Origin: Dysidea avara | Lineage: Eukaryota; Porifera; Demospongiae; Dictyoceratida; Dysideidae | Direction of reading: 5' to 3' | Length of the DNA: 64,000 nucleotides | Assembly: GCF_963678975.1 (NCBI RefSeq) | Contig: NC_089277.1 | Coordinates: forward strand, 25,556,672-25,620,671 | In this document: one piece after another, positions 6,797 through 63,859 of the stretch | Layout of the letters: each line of letters opens with the position of its first letter | How positions within the stretch are numbered: the stretch's first letter is position 1 | Notes under the pieces: model-generated | Seen by the model: only the letters and a program-made list of their open reading frames with translations | What the model was told of the DNA's origin: nothing | Databases searched by the model: none | Translations under genes and position numbers: made by a program

Positions 6797-9700
6797 GGCC
6801 TGTAACGAAAATTTTGGTCCGGGGCAAAAATCGGTCCGGCCGGACCATTTTCAGTCGACCAAATTTAGTCCGCCCGGACCATCTTTAGCATCCGAAATTG
6901 GTCCGACCTGACCAAAATTGGTCCGGCCCAAACCTAGTTGGCCACATGCACTCCTGACCACTCGGACCAATATTGGTCGACCAAAATGGGTCCGGGTGGA
7001 CCACTAACGCATGCAGCCAATGATGCATGCATAGCTATAAGTTGTTTGTGACGGAACACTGTAGCCGACTTAGCTATAGCTATATTCTCATTTATCAATC
7101 TCGAATAATGAGCATTGCAGGCATTATCACTGCATGGATTTGTGCTTAAAAGGTTATCCAACAAGGGCACGAATCATTACATGCACGGGATCAGCTAGCC
7201 GCATTGGAGGTGCTTAAGATCGAGATACTCTAATAGAGCAGTCACCTATAACATTCATCACCGGGCACTGATCCAGAAATAAATGAAGGTAGGTGGCTAC
7301 CCAGCCTAGCCCATGCAGATTTTAAGTTGAGAGTCCTAAATGTCTTAATATTTATATATACATCAGGAAAAGCTGACGCTGTTATTGTTTGGCTTGTACA
7401 GTGAAGTGCATGCACAGTAGCATGTGTACTGTGCTCTTATGCACATATAATGTCTGATCATGAGTTAACACTAATGGTTAGAACAATACATCTGTAACAC
7501 CTAGCTACATGTGTACATACTGCACATTCCTCTCTTGTATGTGATATGTAGGAGATGATAGCTTAGGTTTGCTCCATTAAATAACTAAATGTGAACTATC
7601 ATCTCCTACTGATCACATGTTCCTATATACTGGTATAAACATTTCCTTAAAAGTTATAGCTATATAATATTCCCTGTATGCTTTTCACTACTTAACCAAC
7701 TTTTAAAATTTTACTAATTTTCACCTGTGCACATATACCAGTAGGAGCTAGATGCAAGCACTGATCCAGAAATAAACCAAAGTGGGTGGTTGGCCCAGAT
7801 TTTAAGATGAGAGTCTTGAATGTCTTGGTAGTTACATCAGGGAAGAAGGACTGAAATATTATCATCTAGCTTGTAGCACATAGATATAGTAGCATGCCCT
7901 TGTGAACATAATAAGGCCGGACAAAGTTTATTAATTGATTCGCATCCCTGCCCACATCCCTTTTTACCCCACCGCCTCTAATTTCATTATTGCTGTTATC
8001 AATCACGTGCACACGTATTTTGATGTTAGGAAGGCTGGTTATCATTTTACAGCACAGCAAATGTTACTTGCACCTCAGAAACGGTGGTAGCTAATAAGTA
8101 AGTAATAGTTCTTAAAAGGTTTTATAGTTAACCTTTATAACAGACTTGCCTGATTTGGAGTATTTTCTTTACTAATGAATAATGAAAAATGACCTCCCGC
8201 CTGCATGGAAATCTGAATTTTTGTGGATGAGAAACTAGTAATCAAGTTTTCTGGCTAATGTATTTTGTAATCCCAGTATACAGGCTGCATCATGAGTTAA
8301 CACCAGTGGTTAAAACAAACTGTAATACACCTGCTATGTAACACCTGTGCACATACTGCACATTCCTCTCTGTCATATGTGATATGTAGGAGATGATAGT
8401 TTAGGTTTACTCCATTGAATAACTAAATGTGAACTATCATCTCCTACTAATGACATGCCCCACAGGAAGAAACATCACCTTATAAAGGTTATAGCTATAA
8501 TATTCTCAGTATGTTTTTTACTACTTAACCAACTTAAAATTTTGAAGCATGCAGTCGCATTATTCCACAGCCTTAGGGTGAGTTGTTGCAGACATAAAAG
8601 TAAAATTGACTCAATCCTAAAGCAGACCCCATATCTTCCTTCAAGAAGTTCTCTGCCTGGTAATAGTTAATATACTACCCATGATCATAGATAAATTCAT
8701 GTATACTGCTACCATCTACTGTAAGGTTATAGCCAGCTAGCATTGGAATCTGATGCAATGTATAGGGATTTAGTTCATATTGATATAACAAAAGAGTGTT
8801 CATGATCAGTAATATTCATTATTAAATAATGCATGTCTGAGTGGCTACAAGGCCATGCATGGTGGGTGGCTAGCCACCTCATCCACCCCTCTGGATCAGT
8901 CCCTGAAATAATATGTGTATCTGTTTATGACAATGCGTGCATGCATGCATGGGTATTCCCAGATTAATAAAAAACTGACCATGCAAGGGTCAGAATTAAC
9001 AAATTAAATTCTGAGCTATATAATTATGCAGAAGTTGAAGATAAGACATGTTTTAATGGTATATTTTATATATTGTCTACCATCCTCAAGTATAAGTGAT
9101 CCAGCATAGGCTGGTGATTTCCATCATGTTGCTATAGTTGTTTGTCATAATCAACACAAACAGGCTGGATGAAAGATTCAACCAAACACTGCAGAGCTGA
9201 TGATGCTTGTGAAGTTTACTGAACATTTAAAAAAAAATTTAATTGGTAATTTATATCAATAATACAAGAAAAGGTTTTCACATTCAAACATGGTTGAACA
9301 TATAAAAACGTACTTGGGAAGAATATTTTGTTACTTGTGTTTTTGTATGCAACATTGACCACCATGCATGAATCCAGCATTGGCCATGCATTTGAGTTGA
9401 TGTAGCTATGCCGGAAGAAAACCTCTACTTCCCAGCTAGCTATTGACATGGAGAAGAAGAATACAGGACTTTTATCATACCACACTGCTTTAAATCAAAA
9501 CAGCATTAATTTTGCGACTGTGTTCATCGGCTGCATATATATAGATCGTGGAATTTAGTTTCTAGCTACTACATGCATTTTCCGTAAATCACAGAACTCG
9601 GGAAATTAAACTACGCTACTCATTTATATAGTTTCCAGGCTAAGTCGGCTGCAGTGATCCATCACAATATACTTTACCTGCCACACAATGCCGGGTACAC

Positions 9701-9939
9701 CCGCGGACCAACCCGAGCCCGGACCAACCAAAATTGGTCCAAGTGGTCAGGGGGTGCATGTGGCCAACAAAGTTTGGGCCGGACCAATTTTAGTCAGGCC
9801 GGACCAATTTTGGATGCCAAAAATGGTCCGGCCGGACTAAACTTGGTCAACCAAATTTGGTCCGGCTGGACCAGTTTTGGTATCCAAAATCGGTCCAGCC
9901 GGACCGATTTTACCCGGACCGATATTTCCGTGACAGGCC
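6797..9939. mobile_element. 3.1 kb element with long GGTCC-repeat inverted ends
   Basis: The left end (6797 to ~7005) and right end (~9695-9939) are inverted copies of each other over about 210-250 bp. The left starts GGCCTGTAACGAAAATTTTG and the right ends in the complement of GGCCTGTCACGGAAATAT. Both are packed with TTGGTCC and GGTCCGGCCGGACC blocks, the latter a perfect palindrome. The interior has no long coding frame, so the element is non-autonomous or dead. I found no clear target duplication. Foldback-type or other long-TIR DNA transposons look like this; the superfamily is not assigned. Confidence 0.65.
7259..8545 (+). repeat. Two tandem copies of a ~0.5-0.8 kb segment with an inner hairpin
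   Basis: Copy 1 starts at about 7263 and copy 2 at about 7758, both with CACTGATCCAGAAATAAA, and both continue through GATTTTAAG.TGAGAGTC. Each later contains the inverted repeat GTAGGAGATGATAG / CTATCATCTCCTAC (7549 to 7608, and 8386 to 8448), then TATAGCTATA and ACTACTTAACCAACTT. Copy 2 carries extra sequence. The duplication lies inside the long-TIR element. Confidence 0.7.
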
Positions 9940-10109
9940 AATCAACTTATATTTGATGTGTATTAGTCAGTGTCACAAAGCTGAATAAGTGCTGAGAAAA
10001 TTGGAGCCAAAGCCTGTGCGTCATTTTGTGCTCACGCTGGGCCAACTGAGTGCCATATTGCCTTAACAAATGTGTGTGTGTGTGCAATTACATATAGTTT
10101 GTTCTTCAA

Positions 10110-62107: not shown

Positions 62108-62299
62108 TAAGATATAGCCATCGTGCAGTAACTCCAAGGTCCTATGGCTAGTTGCAAACAGTACGCGATCCAACCATTCAGTAGATATATATATTGCTAT
62201 ATCTAGCTAATAGACACCCATGCATATTGCATGTATTTAGCTATAGTTAGCTAACTAGCTATATAGCTACTATATAAGCTAATACAATAATTATACTAG

Positions 62300-62388
62300 C
62301 TAGCTATACTAATAATCAGAACTATAGTCATTTAAAATAAACTTTGTTGCTCTTCTCTGGACCTGCTCAATAAGTGTGATGTTCTTGA
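62300..62388 (-). mobile_element. LINE RT fragment, downstream part
   Basis: The minus strand reads ITLIEQVQRRATKFILNDYS. It continues, in the same frame, the fragment at 63860-64000 once the intervening MITE and one copy of its CTTGA duplication are set aside. A stop follows. Confidence 0.75.
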
Positions 62389-63859
62389 CAGGGGCGGATC
62401 TAGGATTTATAAAAGGGGCAGGCTAACTCAAGGTACTAATCTCTTGGGTAGAGGTGTGCAAAGCATGCTGGAACTAGGGGGGTCAGGAAATTTTGAAAAA
62501 TAAATGTTAAAATACTGCAATTTGGAGACATTCCCACGTAAAATTCATAATATTTTCTGCCTGTAGATTATATATGTGACCCTATTTTGGAAAACCATAC
62601 ATCTGGGCACATTGGCCAATTTTGTTTTTTTATAGCTACAATGAAGCACTGAGTGGTTATCTACCTTGTGTGAAAATTTTGTGACGATACGTTGAAGCAT
62701 TCCAAAGATATGGCCAATTTACTGTCTAATACATTACAAACTAACTTTCATTATCAGTTTATAGAACTGAATAGTGATCAGATGTGACAAATTGATGACA
62801 AATCACTTTGTTAACAAAGATCACCATTCTTACAATCTAAAATTAATGGAAAGAGATTCTTGAGAGTTTAATCATGTGTTCTTTGTGCTTTTTCTCAATT
62901 AAATCACTTGTAATATTGTGTAAAGACAGGAAAATGTTTGGTTTTGGGAATGAACAAATCATCCAATTTGTAAGTTAATTGTTGTCCCACGCATTGTGAA
63001 ACTACTACATGGTCTGATATAATTGAGTATATCACCTAGATAAAAGAAGCTATGGGTGTGAAATTTCACAGCAAGAAGGCTTAATACGTAGTTGCTTTAT
63101 CAGAATATGTAAAAAATTAATTTAAAAAAAATCACTGAAATTTTCAATTGAGAATTCCCACAAATTTTGCATGTGCCTAGATGTATGGTTTTCCAAAATA
63201 GGGTCACATATACTGCTTTTAGATTATAGGTATGGCTCTCTGAAGCATTTTGTTAATGGAAAAGTTTGGGTAGGTACAGACAACCAAGTACATGATGCAC
63301 CCCTCTCACAATTGCACAACACTGAATAGGTGCATGTTAGAATAATAATGTTGAAAGAGGAAAATTTTGAAATTTGAACAATACAAGATTGAATCTGAGA
63401 GCATTTTCAATGGAAATTGCCTACCTGAATTAAGTATTGCCATACATATTAACTACACAAGTGGATGAATGAAGCCCTTTAAACAGACCAATGCACTTCA
63501 TTGTATGTATAGGTGCAGGCAGATTTGGAAAAATTTCATAACAGAACAGACTACATGTTTCCAGTGAATGCTCTATTAGAGTAGTTAGCTGACTGCTCTA
63601 TTAGAGTATCTCGATCTTGTACCTCCAATGCTGATCCAGGTCCTTGTTGTATAAAATTTAGCATAAATCCACTGATAATACCTTGGAAAGATGTTTATAA
63701 GGTGGTTTTATGAGTATTTGCATTATTAGTGATCATATAATTATGCTAAGACAAAATTTTATCATTATAATTCTCAGCATCATATTGATCAAGTAAAGCC
63801 TAAATATGAAGGGGGGCTTCAGCCCCCAAAGCCCCCCCCCCTTCCTGAATCCATCCCTG
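62389..63859. mobile_element. 5 bp-TSD MITE, family copy 5, nested in a LINE
   Basis: The left end is CAGGGGCGGATCTAGGA and the right end is the complement of CAGGGATGGATTCAGGA. CTTGA is repeated exactly at 62384-62388 and 63860-63864. It is 1471 bp because a second MITE (62575-63208) sits inside. A C/G-run flanks the right end and paired motifs lie at 63569-63620. Confidence 0.9.
62575..63208. mobile_element. TGTGACC-ended MITE nested in the 62389-63859 MITE
   Basis: A ~35 bp inverted repeat: TGTGACCCTATTTTGGAAAA at the left, its exact complement at the right, followed by CCATACATCT. TATA flanks each side (62571-62574, 63209-63212), consistent with a TA target. 634 bp, non-coding. Confidence 0.85.

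Follow-up and report, generated by a model that had tools for sequence, protein, structure and literature searches.

A 64,000-nucleotide stretch of the genome of the sponge Dysidea avara (contig NC_089277.1, positions 25,556,672 to 25,620,671 of the forward strand), referred to here as the window, carries many copies of a short sequence unit. The unit has an 18-bp core, ACTCTAATAGARCAGTCA, often with an arm, AAGATCGAGAT, in front of it, and short arrays of cores are frequent. We tentatively interpret it as an 18-bp cis-element present in several unrelated kinds of non-autonomous transposons and as a candidate site for a sequence-specific DNA-binding protein, host or transposon-encoded, a reading that we consider quite possible. 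A functional site had been raised in the original prediction for this DNA, and we infer one here because in SINE-R, a family of short interspersed nuclear elements (SINEs), the core has diverged far less than the flanking sequence. Both the step from conservation to binding and the step from binding to benefit are inferential.

Results

Abundance of the core in the window and in the genome

A dispersed motif had been predicted at 18 places in the window, and each of them holds a copy of ACTCTAATAGAGCAGTCA with at most three mismatches. At this threshold the window contains 25 matches against 0.11 expected, and CTCTAATAGAG with at most one mismatch gives 27 matches, on both strands, against 1.02 expected. 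A weight matrix built from the 18 loci yields 26 matches of at least 14 bits (0.03 expected), below which matches are noise. In a comparison of the dispersal of 12-base words with the satellite masked, motif words occurred at 17 loci, as against 7 for the best unrelated word and 7 in a Markov control.

The excess extends to the whole eukaryotic genome of 550,814,596 bases (550.8 Mb), where the motif lies far above its controls: there are 39,567 exact copies of the 14-mer ACTCTAATAGAGCA (14 for the reversed control) and 11,425 of the 27-mer GATCGAGATACTCTAATAGAGCAGTCA (0 for the reversed control). In a fixed sample of twenty 10-kb stretches (200 kb) at fixed positions on ten contigs, there are 57 cores with at most three mismatches and no reversed core, which extrapolates to about 157,000 cores in the genome. 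With four mismatches allowed, the window and the fixed stretches together hold 111 cores at 69 separate sites (reversed control, 7); the fixed stretches alone account for 48 of these sites, about one per 4.2 kb, or some 130,000 sites genome-wide.

Three scans of viral collections yielded 0, 0 and 5 matches, and one of prokaryote genomes 2; we take these seven matches as chance because the arm is absent from all of them. Searches of the open-licence literature for the strings CTCTAATAGAG, CTCTATTAGAG, GAGATACTCTAATAGAG and ACTCTAATAGA found no such element named, the matches being judged unrelated from their listings, and topic searches of the same literature returned nothing apparently relevant beyond PMC2800124 and the VANC papers.

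Some other readings were rejected. A pair formed with a Helitron end or other transposon end was set aside when a second motif at a distance was not found in the window, where no companion word within 500 bases of the unit beats random positions. The satellite at 11-14 kb is no closer to the unit than shuffled sequence (P=0.40), so it is not taken as a derivative, and no match to an RNA family in the window reaches the gathering score. The absence of the arm from second cores had brought spliced-leader relics into consideration; these were dismissed on the grounds that the unit is antisense to the SINE-R head and also lies within DNA transposons.

Sequence and edges of the unit

Alignment of the 18 window loci defines a 29-base conserved stretch, AAGATCGAGATACTCTAATAGAGCAGTCA, with no conservation beyond it, and its edges are sharp in the window loci and in the genome sample alike. 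The motif had been described as palindromic, which is correct for the central 11 bp and incorrect for the 18-bp core as a whole, which is asymmetric. By eye, core positions 1 and 11 vary without matching changes, an observation that bears on symmetric half sites; at position 11, G (31 of 57) and A (26 of 57) are near parity among the cores of the fixed stretches. The arm word was said to precede the core often, and GATCGAGAT stands exactly in front of it at only 7 of the 18 window loci. Pairs of cores do occur, at same-strand spacings in the window of 17 to 31 bp (the degraded core at 27413 included) rather than the predicted 20-35 bp. The units in the window are as follows.

7216..7244, plus strand: arm and core, single core, 0 mismatches; flank family common to sampled locus L050
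10945..10990, plus strand: 2 cores, spacing 17, within the Helitron-like element
23777..23805, minus strand: single core (motif match)
24498..24547, minus strand: 2 cores, spacing 21, degraded arm (motif match)
27392..27454, plus strand: clear core at 27437, degraded cores at 27392 and 27413
28617..28645, plus strand: single core (motif match)
29218..29246, plus strand: unit in the MITE with an 8-bp TSD (motif match; abbreviations below)
30912..30940, minus strand: single core; degraded MITE end nearby, at about 31010 (by eye)
36513..36572, plus strand: 2 cores, spacing 31; element common to the 39274 site
39274..39322, minus strand: core and degraded second core; element common to the 36524 site
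41727..41776, minus strand: 2 cores, spacing 21, in an apparent old degraded MITE (by eye)
44984..45064, plus strand: 3 cores, spacings 21 and 31 (motif match)
47708..47736, plus strand: single core, degraded arm (motif match)
51488..51516, minus strand: unit in SINE-R (motif match)
56825..56853, plus strand: unit in SINE-R, partly decayed (motif match)
57346..57374, plus strand: single core; relative at L020:3287
60565..60614, plus strand: 2 cores, spacing 21 (motif match)
63565..63618, minus strand: 2 cores, spacing 25 (motif match)

Unrelated elements carry the unit

The copies had been assigned to miniature inverted-repeat transposable elements (MITEs) of several end types. This is true of some, in elements whose ends can be checked; others lie in a SINE, in a Helitron-like element and in unplaced DNA. 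The broader claim that one motif crosses transposon types is upheld by the ends, the target-site duplications (TSDs) and the SINE head, and by the presence of 18 flank families among 136 sampled sites. The host elements in the window are listed below.

24143..24599: MITE A, 5-bp TSD GATAA, with a nested C-type piece that carries the unit
27286..27517: Tigger/pogo-like MITE, TA at both ends (superfamily name by eye)
28985..29625: MITE with perfect 8-bp TSD GGCTCACT; relatives L051 and L076
44743..45180: TAGGCTTG MITE, 8-bp TSD matching at 7/8
60476..60843: C-type MITE, 5-bp TSD CTTTG
62389..63859: E-type element, 5-bp TSD CTTGA
10158..14867: Helitron-like host, about 4.7 kb, from ends and homology extents; 31-bp tandem array at 11304-14272
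51395..51900, plus strand: SINE-R, tRNA-headed, limits approximate; unit antisense to the tRNA head
56395..56965, minus strand: second SINE-R copy, limits approximate

The MITEs with 5-bp TSDs, A to E, have terminal inverted repeats and a perfect duplication in 5/5 cases, read from their flanks (GATAA, CTGTA, CTTTG, GAAAA and CTTGA, respectively). The unit is present in A, C and E; B and D have the same kind of ends and lack it. No relative of the Tigger/pogo-like MITE was found in the sample. We regard the element at 10158-14867 as Helitron-like because its TC start follows an A in 3/3 copies (A, then TCAAGACACACGG) and because it ends near a hairpin, ACAGCTTGGCTGT, which in two copies is followed by GGATTAG rather than CTRR; the other copies are L018:2747-5950 and, in part, L015. 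In the SINE-R head, the A and B boxes were read by eye, and ARAGORN reported no tRNA in the window. A region of 350-400 bp, termed R, is about 65-70% alike between the SINE and the Helitron-like element (56395-56823, 51517-51900 and 10366-10745).

That all copies might be fragments of one ancestral repeat with longer homologous flanks is borne out within families, where 50 of 73 sites have a flank in common with a site elsewhere, and not between them. In the set of 136 sites, from which repeats of the same place were dropped, 95 fall into the 18 flank families (at least two members each) and 41 have no partner; because many of these sites were picked for holding the core, mostly from one contig, these proportions do not apply to the genome as a whole. 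The largest family, C, has 22 sites and consists of several MITE subfamilies joined by a common right side, and the second, with 21 sites, unites SINE-R with Helitron-R, which have the left side in common.

These figures bear on an alternative in which the unit is a regulatory or chromatin element (insulator, promoter element or silencer target) used by the host and spread by transposons. The length and specificity of the core and its density in the fixed stretches speak for it, as does the occurrence of arrays in known insulators. On the other hand, most sampled sites look like transposon copies, given that 95 share a flank in this largely core-picked set, and individual insertions of family E, described below, are without clear sign of selection. 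We consider this alternative improbable.

Core conservation and drift

The comparison that carries our interpretation is one between lineages and comes from SINE-R, an old family and the one best suited to such a test. In seven copies compared with their majority, 5/126 core positions have changed (4.0%) against 365/1619 in the flanks (22.5%; P=2.5e-8), and the difference persists when the copy fetched by the exact 27-mer is left out (about P=9e-8, the flank total being approximated). The arm, with 16/77 changes, does not differ from the flank (P=0.78). Six SINE-R copies in the window and fixed stretches were found again by flank profiles and have 0, 0, 0, 0, 0 and 2 core mismatches, and the same profiles over the window and stretches gave no additional SINE-R copy with a ruined core, in a test that is only partly free of core selection, the profiles having been built from core-selected members.

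Other families give a similar picture. The core identity is 0.94 in R5 and 0.96 in R6/L4, both core-selected, with flanks at 0.50-0.63; within families overall, cores are 0.93-1.00 and flanks 0.50-0.94 identical, core identity being inflated by the initial gathering of sites by core match. The arm drifts in SINE-R (0.70), R5 (0.76) and R6/L4 (0.68). A wider flank search returned 122 matches, 52 with 0-3 core mismatches, 70 with 7-11 and none with 4-6; by eye, many of the 70 coreless matches are satellite or other contexts. Ten diverged matches contain 11 core changes against 23.4 expected (P=0.004), a weaker result confined to matches with at most three changes.

Apart from core selection in the sampling and in the profiles, several observations weigh against a conserved functional site. 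In Helitron-R (0.99 vs 0.96) and in the TAGG family (0.97 vs 0.93), copies resemble one another in the arm no less than in the core. One match to the TAGG flank profile (L023) has four core mismatches, so intermediates exist; the other matches to this profile lie in different contexts, without a core. In the Helitron-like element the first R copy has a ruined core (8-9 mismatches) in 4/4 cases, while the core of the second is intact in 2/2. The cores of the window pair at 36524 and 39274 are, by eye, kept no better than their flanks. Finally, in family E, which is young, the cores have changed at 38/3196 positions and the non-CpG arm and spacer at 23/1504 (P=0.34).

The E counts rest on 94 usable copies among the 100 listed, four with indels or cut text and two repeating a neighbour's string being left out. 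When CpG positions are counted the comparison becomes 38/3196 vs 36/1692 (P=0.013), a difference that we attribute to CpG decay rather than to constraint; the CpG in the arm ATCGAG has changed in 13/188 cases, several-fold above other positions. Selection at single E insertions is not clearly indicated. The control interval of family C (942 copies, 100 listed) belongs to a family too young for a rate comparison. In each family that we compared, the 18-bp core appears to be what is kept, and the arm may be important in some of them.

Two side observations concern these families. The excess change at the arm CpG fits what would be expected if E copies are CpG-methylated. Identical strings of an unusual kind recur in two pairs of E copies, at about 5.93-5.95 Mb and 6.09-6.11 Mb of G000:C2, and suggest a segmental duplication.

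Possible independent mobility of the unit

The sharp edges and many unrelated contexts of the unit are what a small mobile unit, inserting by itself into transposons and other DNA, would be expected to show, and the original prediction had offered this as an option. The option fared poorly. At the 18 window loci, the sequences at the unit edges match over a mean of 2.67 bases, compared with 2.80 for shuffled pairs (P=0.74), giving no indication of a target duplication. We also searched families C and E with exact flank anchors and a free gap, a design that covers the less diverged copies of these two families. Family C has 954 copies with the two-core gap length, and each of the 100 listed contains the unit, in some cases changed. 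Its 19 short-gap copies all retain one arm and one core, consistent with a 21-bp contraction, and none is empty. Family E has 666 copies with the long gap (100 listed); its five short-gap copies comprise two with one core and three with internal deletions in which part of the arm survives, again with none empty. As no precise empty site occurs among the short-gap copies, the unit belongs to the element in families C and E and only contracts or decays there. We therefore consider self-insertion very unlikely. Separately, three same-strand C copies lie 1322 bases apart at G000:C1:49274606-49277327, in a tandem array that contains the MITE.

Arrays and transfer between elements

Counting weak array cores, the 136 sites contain one core in 44 cases, two in 74, three in 16 and four in 2. 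Spacings of 17, 20, 21, 23, 25, 27 and 32 occur across families and are mostly constant inside a family: 17 in Helitron-R, mostly 21 in C, 25 in E, 21 and 31-32 in TAGG, and 20 in the family with 8-bp TSDs. That the spacing differs between families points to repeated local multiplication, and it led us to reject helical phasing of the cores. A hidden second core at every single-core site was also rejected, the by-eye reading having failed its control. One TAGG-type element, L034:9698-9782, has units on both strands flanking a short centre.

A worked case of transfer is provided by MITE A. This element and its relative L034:8451-8755 (TSD GATAT), which is without the unit, have both ends in common. 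In place of 98 bases from the middle of the relative, the window copy carries a C-type element that starts exactly at the terminal CAGGGGCGG and breaks off inside the arm of the unit, its right part deleted. Nested insertion followed by deletion therefore brought the unit into another element. Elsewhere, one flank is common and the other different across the unit, as between SINE-R and Helitron-R and between E and the 7227 type, and flanks combine in several ways: an R left side with satellite or tRNA on the right, and a C right side with several left sides.

Two alternatives draw on these junctions. The first treats the unit as a place of breakage or recombination where modules are exchanged between transposons, since homology ends at or beside it in A/C, SINE-R/Helitron-R and E/7227. 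The events are few, however, the A/C junction is explained by nested insertion and deletion, and only places bearing the unit were viewed; we find this alternative scarcely credible.

The second is neutral hitch-hiking, in which a functionless unit is moved by nested insertion, deletion and template switching and then amplified family by family. It is a serious rival, possible though on balance doubtful. The acquisition of the unit by element A, with an exact left end and a deletion inside the unit on the right, is what it would predict, as is the combination of left and right flanks in more than one way, and single E insertions lack clear constraint outside the CpG effect. It accounts less well for SINE-R, which keeps the core and not the arm. 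Moreover, recent neutral transfers should bring longer common flanks, but perfect units sit in unrelated flanks.

Other features of the window

BEL/Pao-like retroelement frames, open as they stand, occupy 16228-22000 on the minus strand (Peptidase_A17, RVT_1, integrase and DUF1759), and a search for relatives of the BEL/Pao frame found none. An F-box protein frame at 970-2922 (plus strand) and a protein kinase frame at 43259-44344 (minus strand) are probably host genes. By impression, the F-box, kinase and BEL/Pao frames are of animal type. Beside MITE C, a frame at 60950-61414 (minus strand) resembles, by eye, the C-terminal end of a long interspersed nuclear element (LINE) reverse transcriptase and has no Pfam match.

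Discussion

The usual view is that each transposon family relies on signals of its own. A site of such length and specificity in cut-and-paste, rolling-circle-like and retroposed elements alike, at roughly one per 4 kb, would instead mean a common dependence on one cellular factor. If a site for a binding protein is indeed what the core represents, lineages whose copies keep it would multiply more, for instance because they are better expressed, less silenced or gain readier access to replication. The site would be kept in the active lineages of several families and would decay in dead copies after insertion. Entry into unrelated families could have occurred by nested insertion and then deletion, as suggested by the one worked case of element A, and recurrent arrays with different spacings would fit a benefit from several sites, as with Arabidopsis VANC targets (PMC5735166). 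The resemblance of the arrays to VANC targets also prompts the first guess that the candidate protein may help against silencing.

In its fullest form, this proposal would make the 18-bp site a shared 'passport', taken up and kept by unrelated DNA transposons, a Helitron-like element and a SINE, with one binding protein aiding escape from silencing or multiplication; we regard this extended version as rather doubtful. The core gives a direct handle on transposon persistence in a repeat-rich animal genome and on how a single factor might control very many sites, and the unit is short enough for family-by-family repeat annotation to miss.

Among known systems, the Su(Hw) insulator array in the Drosophila gypsy element consists of long specific binding sites that lie in a mobile element and are recognised by a host protein. 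The unit described here is alike in being an array of a long specific site inside mobile elements; it differs from the single-family gypsy case in occupying many families, with cores on the order of 150,000. The central domains of SINEs (CORE, V, Deu and others) are stretches conserved between families with different ends, longer than our core and confined to SINEs, whereas the 18-bp core is also found in DNA transposons and a Helitron-like element.

Within sponges, PMC2800124 describes repetitive hairpin-forming elements of mitochondria, which are short dispersed palindromic repeats, also in tandem, with conserved stems and variable loops. Unlike these, the present unit is nuclear, has an asymmetric core and is carried by transposons. 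In Arabidopsis, a 9-bp motif, YAGTATTAY, occurs at high density, is confined to VANDAL21 and has a known binding protein (PMC5735166). The VANC target arrays described there resemble our unit in being a short motif in non-coding transposon parts, with several copies in the same orientation whose number varies from one related element to another through tandem repeat change, and variable arrays of this kind, with 1 to 4 cores per site, are what we find in D. avara. In contrast to the VANDAL21 motif, the 18-bp core is carried by several element types unrelated to one another, and its protein partner is putative.

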